From Chitinophagales bacterium (GTDB taxonomy: Bacteria; Bacteroidota; Bacteroidia; Chitinophagales; UBA2359): a DNA stretch of 64,000 nt. The stretch spans positions 1-64,000 of the forward strand of contig JAHDFD010000023.1 of NCBI GenBank assembly GCA_020628375.1. Reading direction: 5' to 3'. Below the pieces are notes generated by a model that was not told the DNA's origin, did no database searches, and saw nothing but the letters and a program-made list of their open reading frames with translations. Shown here one piece after another: positions 19,105-57,183 of this stretch (positions are counted from its first letter, which is position 1; each line of letters starts with the position of its first letter). The translations under genes were made by a program, and so were the position numbers.

Positions 19105-19173
19105 TTCCATGTTAAAATATTTCCTAAATATGCCGTAATTTAGAAATCAGATCATTGATATTTTAACATGGAA
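19105..19173 (+). promoter_or_regulatory. 16-bp inverted repeat spanning the start codon of the hydroxylase-CDGSH gene
   Basis: TTCCATGTTAAAATAT at 19105-19120 is repeated as its exact reverse complement at 19158-19173, where it contains the ATG at 19168. As RNA the arms would close a 37-base loop and bury the start codon and the ribosome entry region; as DNA it could be a protein-binding site. The left arm also holds an ATG that opens a short reading frame of nine codons. Function is inferred, the repeat itself is directly visible. Confidence 0.5.
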
Positions 19174-20247
19174 TTATTCGGCATTAAAGATTTTGACTCG
19201 ATCCTTGTCTTGGGTATATTGATCTTTTTTGCCTTAATCGAAACGATTTCGGGGCATTTAAAAAATAGTAAACGCAAAGGAAATGACTGGATTCAGGAAG
19301 CGGGTAGTTTCTTTTTACTTTCAGGATTTATAAAACCGGCAACTATATTAACAGTTATCTTTTTAGGCAACACTTTATTTGCTAATACAACACATTTCCT
19401 TTCATCCTGGTCTATTCTTTTATCCCTTCCCTTTTATTTACTGATCGACGATCTATTACAATATTGGTATCATCGTTCTGCACACGAATATACTTTCTTA
19501 TGGAAGTTACACAGACCACATCATCAGGCTGAAGAAATGGGTTATTTTGTATCTTACAGAAATGCTGTTTTATATTATCTGCTCATGCCTAATATATGGT
19601 GGATGGGTATTTGTACTTTTTTAGGTGGTGGATTAGCGGTTGCCATTGGTTTAATTCTCAAACAAATTGTTATTATCAGTTCGCATAGTACTGTAAAATG
19701 GGATGCAGGTATGTATCAACATAATTTCTTTAAGCCTTTTGTTTACCTTTTAGAACGCGTTATTATCACACCTGCTTTTCATCATGGTCATCATGGAAAA
19801 TCGCAAGTAGATGGCATAAGTGAACCTAATGGAAATTATGGCAATATGTTTTCGATCTGGGATCAGCTATTCGGAACAGCAAAGTTTGCACATAAGTTTC
19901 CCAAAGAATATGGTTTACCAATTAACCCAAAAGAAAACTGGCAAGCTCCAATGCTTTACCCACTCGTTCATGCAAAAGAAAACAACAGTGAGCTATCGAA
20001 AGGATTTAAGCACGAGGTAACAAGTAGTAACGATGCAATTATTATTGAATTAGAAAAGGGGAAAAATTATTTGTGGTGTGCTTGCGGGAAAAGTAAATGT
20101 CAACCCTTTTGTGATGGTTCGCATCATGGTTCAAAGTTTAAACCTGTTTTATTTGAAGCCAAAAGGAATGGTAAGGTCAAACTTTGTAATTGTAAAATCA
20201 CTAAAAACCCACCATTTTGTGATAACTCACATGAAGCTTTGAAGTAA
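19168..20247 (+). CDS. fatty acid hydroxylase/sterol desaturase fused to two CDGSH motifs
   Basis: 359 residues, an integral membrane di-iron oxygenase joined to an iron-sulfur tail. The membrane part has the histidine boxes HRSAH (102-106), HRPHH (115-119) and HHGHH (205-209), which ligate the di-iron centre in this superfamily. The C-terminus carries two CDGSH-type [2Fe-2S] motifs: CACGKSKCQPFCDGSH (304-319) and CNCKITKNPPFCDNSH (340-355), each with the three Cys and one His ligands. The tail could pass electrons to the di-iron site or sense redox state; this is inference. Transcribed alone, with an inverted repeat over the start codon. Confidence 0.9.
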   Translation: MELFGIKDFDSILVLGILIFFALIETISGHLKNSKRKGNDWIQEAGSFFLLSGFIKPATILTVIFLGNTLFANTTHFLSSWSILLSLPFYLLIDDLLQYWYHRSAHEYTFLWKLHRPHHQAEEMGYFVSYRNAVLYYLLMPNIWWMGICTFLGGGLAVAIGLILKQIVIISSHSTVKWDAGMYQHNFFKPFVYLLERVIITPAFHHGHHGKSQVDGISEPNGNYGNMFSIWDQLFGTAKFAHKFPKEYGLPINPKENWQAPMLYPLVHAKENNSELSKGFKHEVTSSNDAIIIELEKGKNYLWCACGKSKCQPFCDGSHHGSKFKPVLFEAKRNGKVKLCNCKITKNPPFCDNSHEALK

Positions 20248-22221: not shown

Positions 22222-22257
22222 AACGCCCTGACAGGGTTAAGATCCTACCAGGGCGTT
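22222..22257. terminator. bidirectional hairpin terminator
   Basis: AACGCCCTG (22222-22230) pairs with CAGGGCGTT (22249-22257), extended by further imperfect pairs inside. It separates the converging acyltransferase and CBS genes and is followed by T/A-rich sequence. Confidence 0.75.
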
Positions 22258-22282: not shown

Positions 22283-22954
22283 TCAGATATTCAGATAATG
22301 CATAAGTGCATCGTAATTTTCCTGAAGATCTTCTTGTCCGGTTGTAAGATCTGCCTGAATAATTGCTTCTGCTTCATAGTCGTAACGTTCGAAAGTCGCT
22401 ATCAAACGCATTGTTTCAGGCGTGTTTACTTTTAACAAAACACGTACTTCACTAGCTTCAGCATCATAATCTAAAATACTACTCAGTACCTTCGCTTCGT
22501 TCGATTCTACGATCTGTGCAATTTCTGCCATTGAATATTTAGCAGCAGGCATGACTAAGGCAATTAACCCACCTTTACCATAAAAAGAATACTGATTTGC
22601 CAACGCATTAATAACCATTTGCTGTGTTACCAAGCCCTGATATCTTCCAAGATCATCAACTACGGGTATCGCCGAAAGCTTGTGTTGTTGCATTTTCACC
22701 AATAATTCAAAAACAGAATCATTTTTATAGGCTGTGGTTTCGGCACTATTCCACTCAATTACTTCTAACTGTTCATAAAGATCTTCCTGATCTAAAACCT
22801 GATATTCTGAAATAATGCTCTGAAGAAATCCTTCTTCATTCACATAAGCCAAATGTTGTATATGTTGCTCGCCCATCCATTCTAATGCCTGAATAAAGGT
22901 ATTGTTGGGCTTCAATGCCGGAATTGTTTTATTAAGGAGCGTCTGTGCTATCAT
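22283..22954 (-). CDS. CBS domain pair protein
   Basis: 223 residues. Two CBS domains fill the N-terminal half (about 1-60, ending YVNEEGFLQSIISEYQVL, and 65-125, containing LVKMQQHKLSAIPVVDDLGRYQG). The rest (MAEIAQIVESNEAKVLSSIL and VRVLLKVNTPETMRLIATFE) looks like an ACT-like regulatory region. It most likely binds adenosine nucleotides and regulates something unknown; no enzyme is fused or adjacent. A similar stand-alone protein is common in Bacteroidota. Confidence 0.82.
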   Translation of the reverse strand: MIAQTLLNKTIPALKPNNTFIQALEWMGEQHIQHLAYVNEEGFLQSIISEYQVLDQEDLYEQLEVIEWNSAETTAYKNDSVFELLVKMQQHKLSAIPVVDDLGRYQGLVTQQMVINALANQYSFYGKGGLIALVMPAAKYSMAEIAQIVESNEAKVLSSILDYDAEASEVRVLLKVNTPETMRLIATFERYDYEAEAIIQADLTTGQEDLQENYDALMHYLNI

Positions 22955-23050: not shown

Positions 23051-23806
23051 TTACAAACTTTGCAGAAATTTCTCCAATATACGATTAAAAGTTTGAGGAT
23101 GTTCCATCATTGGAGCATGACCACAATTTTTTAACATAAATAATTCTGAATTCGGTAATAAGTCGTCAAATTTTTCACCAACAAAAGCAGGTGTAACCTT
23201 GTCTTCCTTTCCCCATATTAGCAAGCTCGGCATAGTTAGCTTGTGTAAATGCGCTTCCATATTCTGACGAATAGCTGACTTGGCAGTCAACACCACATTA
23301 ATCGCTTTCTTACGATCGTTTACAGTCGAAAAAACTTCGTCGATCAATGCTTTACTTGCAACATCAGGATCAAAAAAGACTTCCTGTGTTTTTTTAGTAA
23401 TATAATCGTAGTCTCCTCTTCTTGGAAACCCATCTCCTAATGCACTCTCATACAAACCAGAGCTTCCGGTAAGCGTAAGGCTTTTTACTTTTTCTGAATG
23501 ATGTAAGCAGAAAAGCAGGGAAATGTGTCCACCTAAAGAATTGCCTACCAAATTTAGATTATCTAATTGCTTGAAATTCACAAAATCAACGATAAAATCT
23601 TTTAAGGCTAATACAGAAATTTCTTCTCGTGGTAATTCATATAAAGGAAGCATGGGAATAACCACCTTGTATTTTTCAGAAAAGTGCTCAATCAAAACAG
23701 AGAAATTACTGAGCGCTCCGAATAAACCATGTAATAATAATATTACCTCACCTTCGCCTTGCTCAACGTATTTGAACTTCTCTTCTTCTATAATCTGAAA
23801 ATCCAT
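23051..23806 (-). CDS. alpha/beta hydrolase
   Basis: 251 residues, cytosolic, no signal peptide. Oxyanion-hole HGLFG at residues 26-30, nucleophile elbow GNSLGG with S90, acid region LLIWGKEDKVTPAF, and catalytic His in LKNCGHAPMMEHP near the C-terminus. The layout matches esterases and C-C bond hydrolases of the MhpC/BphD type, but the substrate cannot be assigned. It follows the flavoprotein gene at 23892 by 85 bases in the same direction and may be read with it. Confidence 0.85.
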   Translation of the reverse strand: MDFQIIEEEKFKYVEQGEGEVILLLHGLFGALSNFSVLIEHFSEKYKVVIPMLPLYELPREEISVLALKDFIVDFVNFKQLDNLNLVGNSLGGHISLLFCLHHSEKVKSLTLTGSSGLYESALGDGFPRRGDYDYITKKTQEVFFDPDVASKALIDEVFSTVNDRKKAINVVLTAKSAIRQNMEAHLHKLTMPSLLIWGKEDKVTPAFVGEKFDDLLPNSELFMLKNCGHAPMMEHPQTFNRILEKFLQSL

Positions 23807-23891
23807 GCTTTCTTTTTTAGCGAATGCAAAGGTAGGTTATTGATATTTGTCAATTACATTATTCTTCAATATTTGAATAAGCACCATCTTC

Positions 23892-24566
23892 TTACTCATA
23901 AAAAACCGACATATCCTTTAGCCCCTTTCTTTCAAGTTCAGGAACCTGACAATCTTCGGCAGGATAGCCGACTGGAATAAGCAAGAAAGGCTTTTCATTT
24001 ACTGGACGATTCAACACCTTTATCAAGAAATTCATAGGACTTGGGGTATGTGTTAAAGAACACAAACCGGCATTATGAATAGCTGCCAATAGAAAACCGG
24101 CCGCTAAACCAACCGATTCATTTACATAATAATTTTTGCTCTTATTACCATCTGCATCCAGGTCATACGATTTTTTGAATACCACAATTACCCAGGGTAC
24201 TGTTTCAATAAATGGCTTATTCCAGTCAGTATTGAAAGGTGAAAGGTCTTCTAACCATTCATCGCTCATTCTACCATGATAATTTTCGTATTCTTCTTTT
24301 TCAGCTGCTTCCCGCATTTGCTTTTTAATATCAGGATTGCTCACTGCACAAAATGTCCATGGTTGCTTGTGTGCACCTGAAGGTGCAGAAGATGCCGTTC
24401 TAATAATGTTTTCTATAACTTCTTTAGGAACAGGTTTATCTGAAAAATGTCTGATAGAACGACGCTTATCCATTAACTCATAAAATGCTTTTGATCGTTG
24501 CAAACTTTCTTCTTCAGAAAAATCGGCAGTTTGATATGGAATGAATTTATGTTCTACTTCACTCAT
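23892..24566 (-). CDS. iodotyrosine deiodinase-like nitroreductase
   Basis: 224 residues of the FMN nitroreductase fold. FMN-binding stretches are RRSIRHFSDKPVP (35-47), SSAPSGAHKQPWTF (59-72) and LLIPVGYP. The iodotyrosine deiodinase signature is complete: E92, Y96 and K117 occur with the spacing of the three substrate-lid residues of vertebrate and bacterial IYD enzymes (E, +4 Y, +21 K), and the lid-region and C-terminal stretches (EEYENYHGRMSDEW; NYYVNESVGLAAGFLLAAIHN) follow the same family. It probably performs reductive dehalogenation of halotyrosines, or a related reduction. An alpha/beta hydrolase follows downstream. Confidence 0.85.
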   Translation of the reverse strand: MSEVEHKFIPYQTADFSEEESLQRSKAFYELMDKRRSIRHFSDKPVPKEVIENIIRTASSAPSGAHKQPWTFCAVSNPDIKKQMREAAEKEEYENYHGRMSDEWLEDLSPFNTDWNKPFIETVPWVIVVFKKSYDLDADGNKSKNYYVNESVGLAAGFLLAAIHNAGLCSLTHTPSPMNFLIKVLNRPVNEKPFLLIPVGYPAEDCQVPELERKGLKDMSVFYE

Positions 24567-24767: not shown

Positions 24768-25259
24768 ATGACTGCTGAAGAGTTCAAATATCAAATTCTA
24801 CCATTAAAGCAAATGTTTTTCCGCTTTGCTTTAAGTATTGTCAAAAGTGCAGAAGTTGCAGAAGATATAGTACAGGATGTATTATTAAAAATGTGGCAGA
24901 AAGCAGATGAGGTAGAAAACCATAAAGCTTGGGGAATGCGTTTGATCCGCAACCTTTCGCTTGATAAATTAAAAGCTTCGCAGGCGAAAGTGGTTGGAAT
25001 CGCTGATGGTTTCAGTATGGAAACATCCATGCCGAGCCCGTTGGATAATACAATAGGAAAAAACATTTCTTCTTTGTTACAGAAAGCACTCGATAACCTG
25101 AATGAACAACAGCGAATGTGTTGGCAATTAAGGGAAATAGAATCGTATAGTTATCAGGAAATTGCCGATACCTGTAATTTAACTTTAGATCAGGTAAGAG
25201 TCAATATATTCAGAGCAAGAAAAAGTTTACAGCAACAATTACAAGTATTAAGATCATGA
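24768..25259 (+). CDS. ECF RNA polymerase sigma factor
   Basis: 163 residues with sigma-70 region 2 (FALSIVKSAEVAEDIVQDVL, about residues 20-40, and NHKAWGMRLIRNLSLDKLKA) and region 4 (LNEQQRMCWQLREIESYSYQEIADTCNLT...RVNIFRARKSLQQQL). It is the first gene of a four-gene set with 25256, 25812 and 26399; the stop overlaps the next start (ATGA, 25256-25259), so the two are translationally coupled. In Bacteroidota such sigma genes commonly sit beside a small membrane protein and DUF4252 genes. Confidence 0.93.
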   Translation: MTAEEFKYQILPLKQMFFRFALSIVKSAEVAEDIVQDVLLKMWQKADEVENHKAWGMRLIRNLSLDKLKASQAKVVGIADGFSMETSMPSPLDNTIGKNISSLLQKALDNLNEQQRMCWQLREIESYSYQEIADTCNLTLDQVRVNIFRARKSLQQQLQVLRS

Positions 25260-25744
25260 ACAGAGCACAAATAGACATATTACTGGAGAAATACTGGAAC
25301 GCTGAGACCTCATTGGCAGATGAGCAGACTTTGAAAGAATATTTTTCTTACAATGAAGTGCCGGAGGATTTGAAAATGTATCAGGATTTTTTCGCAGAAG
25401 TGCAAGAACAACAAATTCCTGTATTGAGTGATGACTTTGATGAAAAGATCATGACTCAGATAGAAAAAGAGAAAGTAGTAAAGCTTAATAATAGTCAACT
25501 ACGAACACGATTCTGGCAAATTGCTGCAATATTTCTTATTGTTATTGGAACAAGCTTATTCATTATTTCAGATATAGATACTAACTCGAGTGCGCTTTCT
25601 AAAGCCGAATATGCTGAAGCCGAGAAAGCATACACAGAAACTAAATTGGCATTGGGTCTTGTTTCCCGAAAACTTAAAAAAGGGCAACGGCCGCTTATTC
25701 AACTCGGAAAGTTCAATCAGAATTTTCAGATGAAATTCAAATAA
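25256..25744 (+). CDS. membrane protein coupled to ECF sigma factor, putative anti-sigma factor
   Basis: 162 residues. An N-terminal cytosolic part of about 80 residues, acidic (ETSLADEQTLKEYFSYNEVP), then one membrane helix RTRFWQIAAIFLIVIGTSLF, then a C-terminal part of about 50 residues. There is no visible zinc-anti-sigma HxxxCxxC motif. Its single-span topology and 4-base overlap with the sigma gene suggest it holds or tunes the sigma factor, which is inference from context. Followed after 67 bases by the first DUF4252 gene. Confidence 0.72.
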   Translation: MNRAQIDILLEKYWNAETSLADEQTLKEYFSYNEVPEDLKMYQDFFAEVQEQQIPVLSDDFDEKIMTQIEKEKVVKLNNSQLRTRFWQIAAIFLIVIGTSLFIISDIDTNSSALSKAEYAEAEKAYTETKLALGLVSRKLKKGQRPLIQLGKFNQNFQMKFK

Positions 25745-25811: not shown

Positions 25812-26333
25812 ATGAAAAATTTATGGCTTTTAATTACCCTGTTCTTTACCTTGAATATGACTGCTCAAAGTGATGTTTCAGGAAACCCACTGATGTCAAA
25901 GTATGGAGGTTCAGATGATTTCACAACCATTAACATCAGTCCTAAGATGTTTCAGTTAATTGCTAAATCTGGTATTGCAGACGAAGACCCTGAGGTTGGA
26001 GAAGTAATCAACAATATTAGCAGTCTGAGCATATTAGTTTATGACAACGAGGATAAGGCACCTCGTTCAAGAGCACTCTACGACGAAGCTTTTTCAAGTC
26101 TTGTTAACAATAGTTTTGAAGAACTGATGACGGTAAAAGATGGCTCCGACAATGTAAGATTCATGATACGTGAAAATGGCAACCTGATCGAACAGTTACT
26201 ACTTTTAGTTGGCAGTGAAGATGAATTCGTAATGATCGACATTTCAGGCAATATTGATCTGGAACAAATTTCCAAGCTTTCAAAATCGATGGATGTTGAT
26301 GGATTCGAACACCTTGAAAAATTAGGTGAGTAA
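25812..26333 (+). CDS. DUF4252 secreted protein
   Basis: 173 residues with a signal peptide (MKNLWLLITLFFTLNMTAQS). The mature part follows the DUF4252 pattern: short early region NPLMSKYGGSDDFTTINISP, a middle helix-strand section (SSLSILVYDNED) and EELMTVKDGSDNVRFMIREN with the conserved EELM-x-V/I-KDG. It is paralogous to the next gene. DUF4252 proteins of Bacteroidota have no established function but often sit with ECF sigma genes, as here. Confidence 0.85.
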   Translation: MKNLWLLITLFFTLNMTAQSDVSGNPLMSKYGGSDDFTTINISPKMFQLIAKSGIADEDPEVGEVINNISSLSILVYDNEDKAPRSRALYDEAFSSLVNNSFEELMTVKDGSDNVRFMIRENGNLIEQLLLLVGSEDEFVMIDISGNIDLEQISKLSKSMDVDGFEHLEKLGE

Positions 26334-26398: not shown

Positions 26399-26896
26399 AT
26401 GAAAAGATATATACTTTGTTTATTGTTAATATGCTTTAGTGTTTCACTTGCAGCACAAGGCGATTTAAGCGCGAATTCACTATTCCGTAAATACAAGCGC
26501 AATACCGATATGCGTGGCGCAACCATTCCTGGTTTTTTAATAAAAATGGGAAGCTGGTTTGTAGATGCCGATGAAGACCCTGAACTCAAACAAATGCTTA
26601 GTAAGGTAGGCGGTATTCGTTTTTTGGTGAGCGAAGGCAGCGACCAGAAACAAAATGAATTTCTGAATGAAATGAGCCATACACTTTCGCCTGAGTATGA
26701 AGAATTAATGACCATTAAGGATGGGGAAGATAATTTCATTATCAGAATAAAAGAGAACAAGGGCAACGTGCAGGAATTGGTGATGCTCGGACAATCAGAT
26801 GAAGATGCGATGTATATTGTTGTTCATGGAAACTTCCCGATAGAAGAAATTGGTACTTTGGTGCATGGAATAACCGAAGGTGATTTTATTGATTAG
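26399..26896 (+). CDS. DUF4252 secreted protein, second copy
   Basis: 165 residues, signal peptide MKRYILCLLLICFSVSLAAQ. Shares with its neighbour the blocks DxxxNSLFRKYKRN, EDPELKQMLSKVGGIRFLV and EYEELMTIKDGEDNFIIRIK. The pair could be envelope factors controlled by the upstream sigma factor. The gene ends at a strong terminator, which closes the sigma cluster. Confidence 0.85.
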   Translation: MKRYILCLLLICFSVSLAAQGDLSANSLFRKYKRNTDMRGATIPGFLIKMGSWFVDADEDPELKQMLSKVGGIRFLVSEGSDQKQNEFLNEMSHTLSPEYEELMTIKDGEDNFIIRIKENKGNVQELVMLGQSDEDAMYIVVHGNFPIEEIGTLVHGITEGDFID

Positions 26897-56235: not shown

Positions 56236-57183
56236 TCAAATAAAGTCCGATTCGATTTTTCTACCCCAGTTTTCCCTTTCTTCATCGGTCCATAATTCAG
56301 GAAAAAAATAGATATGTTGGTTTTTAGGTGGTAAATACTGCTGCCAATTGGTACCTCCTGTTGCTTCTATATCTTTGGGGTTTCGTTGTAAATGGCGCGC
56401 TGCTGCTTTATAGTGTGATAATGGCCAAAGTACATTGGCTCTTACATCGTAGGCTCGCAACATTTCCTGTAAGTCTTTATCTTGTTTTTCTTCTTCAGAA
56501 AGTTGGGTATATTTCTTCCAAATATTCTTATGGTAAAAATCACGGATCAGGTGAATAAGTTCTTTACTATATTTTTTCTCAAACTGTTTCAGTGTAAGCG
56601 TCTTCTTTCCTGTAGCTAGCTCTGTTGCTCCGGTTTTCCAGTAAACATGGTCGTAAAGCTCAATTTCGTCGGTGCTTTTTTCAAGCTGTTTACGGTTATT
56701 TATATTCACCAGGTTAATGATCGGTGTAGAACTCAATTCTATTTTACGATATTGTACCGACTGAAAGCCACTTGAAGGTAATAGCGACATTCTGAATTTT
56801 AAAAACTGCTTGTGATCCAATACATCATACATTACCTTGAATGAATCGATAAGCGTATCGAAATATACATTGATACGTTTCAGATAATGCTTCATGCGCT
56901 CGGCAGAAATTTGCGTTGTATCGGCAATACTATTGATCGCCTGAAGAATAAGATTGAAGTATAATTCTGTTATTTGATGATAAACTATGAATATCTTTTC
57001 ATCTTCAAAAGACGTTTCAGTATCCTGCAGGCTTAGCAAAGTATCTAAATGAATATAATCCCAATAAGTCAGATAATCGGCATAGATCAATCCATCAAGA
57101 TAAGAAGTCATATCTTGACCCATTGCCGAATATTTTTCCTCCAATTTTTTCAGTCGCGCAATTATTTCCGGGCTTAATTCCAT
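56236..57183 (-). CDS. tryptophan 2,3-dioxygenase
   Basis: Haem enzyme that opens tryptophan to N-formylkynurenine, first step of the kynurenine pathway. 315 residues. Family blocks: YLTYWDYIHLDTLLSLQDTE, then FIVYHQITELYFNLILQAIN with the conserved HQ, and near the C-terminus the haem-ligand region ARHLQRNPKDIEATGGTNW. Length and blocks match the Bacteroidota form. It is followed by the acetyltransferase gene and preceded by the EF-hand gene, all minus strand. Confidence 0.93.
   Translation of the reverse strand: MELSPEIIARLKKLEEKYSAMGQDMTSYLDGLIYADYLTYWDYIHLDTLLSLQDTETSFEDEKIFIVYHQITELYFNLILQAINSIADTTQISAERMKHYLKRINVYFDTLIDSFKVMYDVLDHKQFLKFRMSLLPSSGFQSVQYRKIELSSTPIINLVNINNRKQLEKSTDEIELYDHVYWKTGATELATGKKTLTLKQFEKKYSKELIHLIRDFYHKNIWKKYTQLSEEEKQDKDLQEMLRAYDVRANVLWPLSHYKAAARHLQRNPKDIEATGGTNWQQYLPPKNQHIYFFPELWTDEERENWGRKIESDFI

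Follow-up and report, generated by a model that had tools for sequence, protein, structure and literature searches.

The gene at positions 23892-24566 on the minus strand of the analysed window, a 64,000-nucleotide stretch of a Chitinophagales bacterium genome, almost certainly encodes an ordinary bacterial iodotyrosine deiodinase (IYD) of 224 amino acids with the FMN-dependent nitroreductase fold. This assignment draws on homology, on a predicted model and on the conservation of the lid residues, of T174 and of the FMN-contact positions, from which we infer the activity: by analogy to its characterised relatives, the predicted flavin enzyme very probably dehalogenates tyrosines that carry iodine, bromine or chlorine. 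The reading frame is intact, running from an ATG at 24566 to a stop codon that ends at 23892 without an internal stop, while the plus strand of the same interval, read in a single frame, contains many stops. The original prediction, that of a bacterial IYD homologue whose lid triad is complete, had placed the ORF exactly within these bounds, leaving its strand unstated, and is strongly supported by the PDB matches, the fold and the conservation of the triad described below.

Pfam assigns the protein to the family Nitroreductase (PF00881) with 80.2 bits against a cut-off of 23.5. A sequence search of the PDB returned 5ko7, 5ko8 and 5krd as top match (E 8.7e-97), whose titles describe the iodotyrosine deiodinase of Haliscomenobacter hydrossis with FMN, mono-iodotyrosine and 2-iodophenol, respectively. 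The next matches were IYD from human and mouse (E 5e-62 to 3e-61), then 6pz0 (E 1.4e-27). Judged by their entry titles, the first six distinct PDB sequences matched are all IYD entries, and the earliest non-IYD match appears at E 2.4e-12. Identity amounts to 64 % over 216 residues with the H. hydrossis chain 5ko7 and to 47 % over 211 residues with human IYD. None of the NCBIfam equivalogs reached its cut-off with the protein, the top one being BluB, 5,6-dimethylbenzimidazole synthase (TIGR02476), whose 68.1 bits against a cut-off of 150 place the protein outside that family.

For the comparison of structures, which had been proposed as a check of the lid loop, an AlphaFold2 monomer model was generated from a 30-sequence alignment made up of the query and of 29 IYD loci taken from the 80 analysed in named genomes (mean pLDDT 89.4, pTM 0.85). 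In this model the lid segment, residues 86-120 (24207-24311, minus strand; bounds chosen for display), comprises the end of helix 78-96, a loop and helix 102-111. The model superposes best on the substrate-bound chain 5ko8_B containing FMN and mono-iodotyrosine, with a TM-score of 0.92 on the query at 1.6 Å. IYD entries fill ranks 1-25 of the structure search, and the non-IYD entries at ranks 26-50 reach TM-scores of at most 0.67, except for BluB (2isj) with 0.73.

The H. hydrossis enzyme is thus the closest known system, sharing 64 % identity, the fold, the E/Y/K triad, the T at the position of T174 and its bacterial origin, and ordinary sequence divergence is the only difference that we found between the two. 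Vertebrate IYD, or DEHAL1 (human 4ttb and 4ttc; mouse 3gb5, 3gfd and 3gh8), belongs to the same fold family with the same residue spacing and Thr, but carries an N-terminal membrane anchor, whereas the ORF described here starts about five residues ahead of the shared core and therefore has no space for an N-terminal membrane segment. The entry 6pz0, which we take to derive from Thermotoga neapolitana and which was solved with L-tyrosine, is likewise labelled as IYD and adopts the same fold (TM 0.73-0.75), but is only 31 % identical and has a shorter chain. BluB shares the nitroreductase fold and FMN with the window protein at a TM-score of 0.73, its TIGR02476 score lying below cut-off.

Alignment to the IYD chains of H. 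hydrossis and human, combined with a reading of the codons, locates the lid triad at E92 (24291-24293), Y96 (24279-24281) and K117 (24216-24218), all on the minus strand. The spacing of 4 and 21 residues is that of both chains, so that these residues are placed as originally claimed, with the spacing of the vertebrate and bacterial enzymes; we take their human counterparts to be E157, Y161 and K182. The codon of T174 lies at 24045-24047 (minus strand), and this residue presumably corresponds to human Thr239 beside the flavin N5, a number that occurs in the title of PDB entry 5yak. R35, R36 and R39, which we assume to be FMN-contact positions, are likewise present and identical in both templates.

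To be counted as IYD-like, a locus had to exceed 40 % identity over more than 150 aligned residues, which applied to 122 of 129 loci, the other seven being weak nitroreductase matches. All 122 IYD-like loci, representing 115 distinct proteins of which seven occur twice, contain E-Y-K as well as the T at position 174. They comprise 80 loci from a pattern scan of named genomes, 13 from the family and 29 from the phylum; since the scan used short peptides, two of which lie inside the lid, the 80 named loci may be biased towards the triad, while the remaining 42 were obtained by homology searches without lid patterns and include the seven proteins that repeat among the 80. At the edge of the clade, E-Y-K is kept in 10/10 of the most distant IYD-like matches from the phylum (46-51 % identity), compared with 0/10 for the full triad among non-IYD nitroreductases from the phylum at 24-27 % identity, and T occupies position 174 in 10/10 of the former and 1/10 of the latter. 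The full triad is also lacking in all seven weak paralogues (17-23 % identity, aligned with MAFFT), three of which have E-Y-R and two x-Y-K at these columns; with long gaps in the lid alignment and these partial patterns, this second control is weak and the ten nitroreductases provide the better one. The original prediction had named coincidental lid residues as a possible refutation. Set against 0/10 and 0/7 for the other proteins, the counts of 122/122 and 10/10 within the clade show that the lid triad is more than chance. Three of the seven weak paralogues, short proteins of 201-217 amino acids from genomes of the family (L017, L018 and L019), are those with E-Y-R in the gappy alignment and could, judged by this pattern, represent a separate subgroup whose lid is similar.

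Two other identities of the enzyme have to be weighed. That it is a generic nitroreductase or BluB-type enzyme with lid residues resembling IYD by coincidence is scarcely credible to us: the Pfam label, the sub-threshold BluB match and the E-Y-R found in 3/7 weak paralogues, which shows that elements of the pattern can turn up beyond the IYD clade although the alignment is poor, are outweighed by a BluB score of 68, far short of the cut-off of 150, by the absence of the full triad from all 17 other nitroreductases checked and by a structure ranking whose first 25 entries are all IYD. A more serious alternative, which we nevertheless consider unlikely, is an IYD-fold flavoenzyme that has some other phenolic or tyrosine-like compound as its true substrate and deiodinates only as a side activity. 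The triad binds the amino-acid zwitterion rather than the halogen, an IYD was solved with plain L-tyrosine (6pz0), and the conserved residues would be compatible with a different natural substrate; the gene is moreover widespread in the phylum and lacks a constant neighbour, with the most frequent neighbour family present at 18/91 loci, and a Trp_halogenase match was not found in its own genome, which is 69 % complete. Against this alternative stand the 64 % identity to an enzyme whose crystal structure contains iodotyrosine, as well as the retention of both the triad and T174 in every clade member checked, and we prefer the assignment as iodotyrosine deiodinase.

Characterised IYDs are domain-swapped homodimers with two active sites, in which reduced FMN dehalogenates halotyrosine, the lid triad holds the zwitterion and closes over the flavin with the lid, and a Thr at the flavin N5 favours a one-electron path. 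By analogy, the enzyme described here would bind FMN as a homodimer and place the halotyrosine zwitterion on the flavin, held by E92, Y96 and K117, upon which the lid would close. T174 at the flavin N5 may favour one-electron steps, and the reduced FMN would then exchange iodine, bromine or chlorine for hydrogen to yield tyrosine and halide; dimerisation, electron donor, substrate range and the activity itself are all transferred from the known enzymes. As to its role, our guess is the salvage or removal of halotyrosines set free from halogenated proteins. Tentatively, and with more doubt than conviction, we suggest that the widespread IYD of Bacteroidota serves for house-cleaning and not chiefly for iodide salvage, clearing tyrosine that carries chlorine or bromine, or else a related phenolic amino acid. 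If so, such compounds, taken up from degraded protein, would be cleared in order to protect translation or to serve as food for the cell. Besides the missing halogenase match, the search of the organism's own genome returned only a partial match to 4-hydroxyphenylpyruvate dioxygenase (29.5 bits against a cut-off of 277), and in the search for animal-type haem peroxidase the control itself gave no match; at 69 % genome completeness, the absences of halogenase and tyrosine catabolism carry little weight.

The distribution of the gene was assessed in a phylum sample of 394 genomes with a completeness of at least 80 %, which includes the window's own genome regardless of completeness. Members of the IYD clade, with E-values of 3.2e-56 or lower, occur in 115/394 genomes, own genome counted, and are separated from the other matches, which among the matches listed lie at E 1.9e-14 or worse, the one exception being the second fragment of a split match in genome G181. 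At a threshold of E 0.001, 290/394 genomes match, many of them through other nitroreductases. Within the family, 14/20 genomes carry IYD, again with the own genome counted. The named genomes contain at least 567 confirmed relatives, and 79 of the 80 analysed bear names that we take, from general knowledge, to be those of Bacteroidota, including Saprospiraceae, Cyclobacteriaceae, Flavobacterium, Pontibacter, Fulvivirga, Hymenobacter, Lewinella and Saprospira grandis. An iodinated or chlorinated tyrosine substrate had been put forward as a real ecological clue; a clue it is, but a weak one, because carriage in 115/394 genomes of the phylum and 14/20 of the family says little about this organism in particular.

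The remaining named locus, L096, is titled Rickettsiales and encodes a Bacteroidota-like IYD (67 %) beside a neighbour family common to Cyclobacteriaceae and Flammeovirgaceae records, so that a mislabelled or mixed bin is more likely than transfer. Four matches of the IYD clade have in-frame stops or are partial: G290 (L103) contains one TAA, G325 (L107) one TGA and G170 two TAG and one TAA, and the fourth is the split match in G181. The stops in the first three perhaps reflect decaying copies or alignments overrunning the stop codon.

Downstream of IYD, an alpha/beta hydrolase (23051-23806, minus strand) and a CBS-domain protein (22283-22954, minus strand), both recognised by Pfam, follow on the same strand; of the 25 out of 28 NCBIfam families listed, none reached its cut-off with the hydrolase. 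The original prediction regarded the hydrolase as a possible member of the IYD pathway and proposed their co-occurrence as a check, and one could imagine that the hydrolase releases halotyrosine bound as an ester or amide. Both genes lie on one strand with a gap of 85 bases in which no terminator-like site was found, and the second genome of the genus (L004/L132) preserves the order IYD-hydrolase-CBS. We nonetheless consider a common pathway very improbable. The adjacency set comprised 93 IYD loci besides the own one, 13 from the family with flanks of about 1.5 kb and 80 from named genomes with flanks of up to 6 kb, shorter at contig ends, five proteins being common to both groups. An orthologue of the hydrolase (87 %) stands beside IYD in 1/93 of these loci, L004 of the same genus, and was not found within the flanks of the other 92, two of which carry merely distant hydrolases with 28 % and 21 % identity. 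Hydrolase orthologues (E 2.4e-82 or better) are present in 15/20 family genomes, and on the proposed check of co-occurrence 13/20 contain both genes; in 11 of these 13 draft assemblies, though, they lie on separate contigs, and each gene also occurs without the other among the family drafts, the hydrolase in 2/20 and IYD in 1/20.

The more regular partner of the hydrolase is the CBS-domain gene, found near it in 13/15 loci with the own and the same-genus locus counted. Directly upstream of the hydrolase, in the gap to IYD, lies a promoter-like motif of Bacteroidetes type, TTG-N16-TACCTTTG (23827-23853, minus strand). Such motifs occur within 150 bases upstream of 4/48 chosen genes, IYD not being among the four, whereas 300 random draws gave 0.84 on average and 4 at most. 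A strong terminator-like hairpin of 14 pairs (22222-22257, minus strand) is located 3' of the CBS gene and plausibly marks the end of a hydrolase-CBS transcript. Adjacency in 93 loci, co-occurrence in 20 family genomes and the neighbourhood of the hydrolase led us to reject a general link between IYD and the hydrolase, and the plainest reading is that IYD adjoins an older hydrolase-CBS pair in the window's genus only. Clustering of neighbouring ORFs of at least 90 amino acids, up to four per side within the flanks, did not reveal a universal IYD partner in the 91 loci considered; L034 and L039 were left out because their IYD ORF fell outside the set of ORFs selected for clustering. The top neighbour families occur in 18, 12, 12 and 11 of the 91 loci, mostly in Saprospiraceae records, and on reading their sequences resemble a short-chain dehydrogenase, two components of ABC transporters and a protein of the NRDE type.

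Bacterial IYD is already in print, as seen from published passages and a reference list: the list in PMC8076288 names a thesis from 2017 about the H. hydrossis enzyme and a 2014 item appears in PMC13078365, while passages of PMC3930498 and PMC7538488 deal with a nematode homologue and plant nitroreductases. Our literature search combining IYD with Bacteroidetes, halotyrosine, Thermotoga or chlorotyrosine did not find a paper, bacterial IYD work being met as titles in reference lists. The present analysis extends a characterised family by one well-supported member, and its counts show IYD to be common in the phylum. As every clade member checked has the full triad, which all 17 other nitroreductases compared lack, the triad offers a possible annotation rule, which could serve because both Pfam and the PDB molecule name label such proteins as nitroreductase.

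Several further features were observed in the window. Divergent from IYD, an ECF sigma factor (NF058625, above cut-off) and a downstream ORF, for which a family match was not found in Pfam or NCBIfam, occupy 24768-25744 on the plus strand, and this region is followed by two small, related and secreted-looking ORFs (25812-26333 and 26399-26896) that are 26 % alike. Judged by reading its sequence, the ORF at 56236-57183 (minus strand) encodes a putative tryptophan 2,3-dioxygenase. At 19168-20247 on the plus strand, a fatty-acid hydroxylase domain is fused to C-terminal CDGSH iron-binding zinc-finger repeats in two stretches, a pairing that looks unusual.
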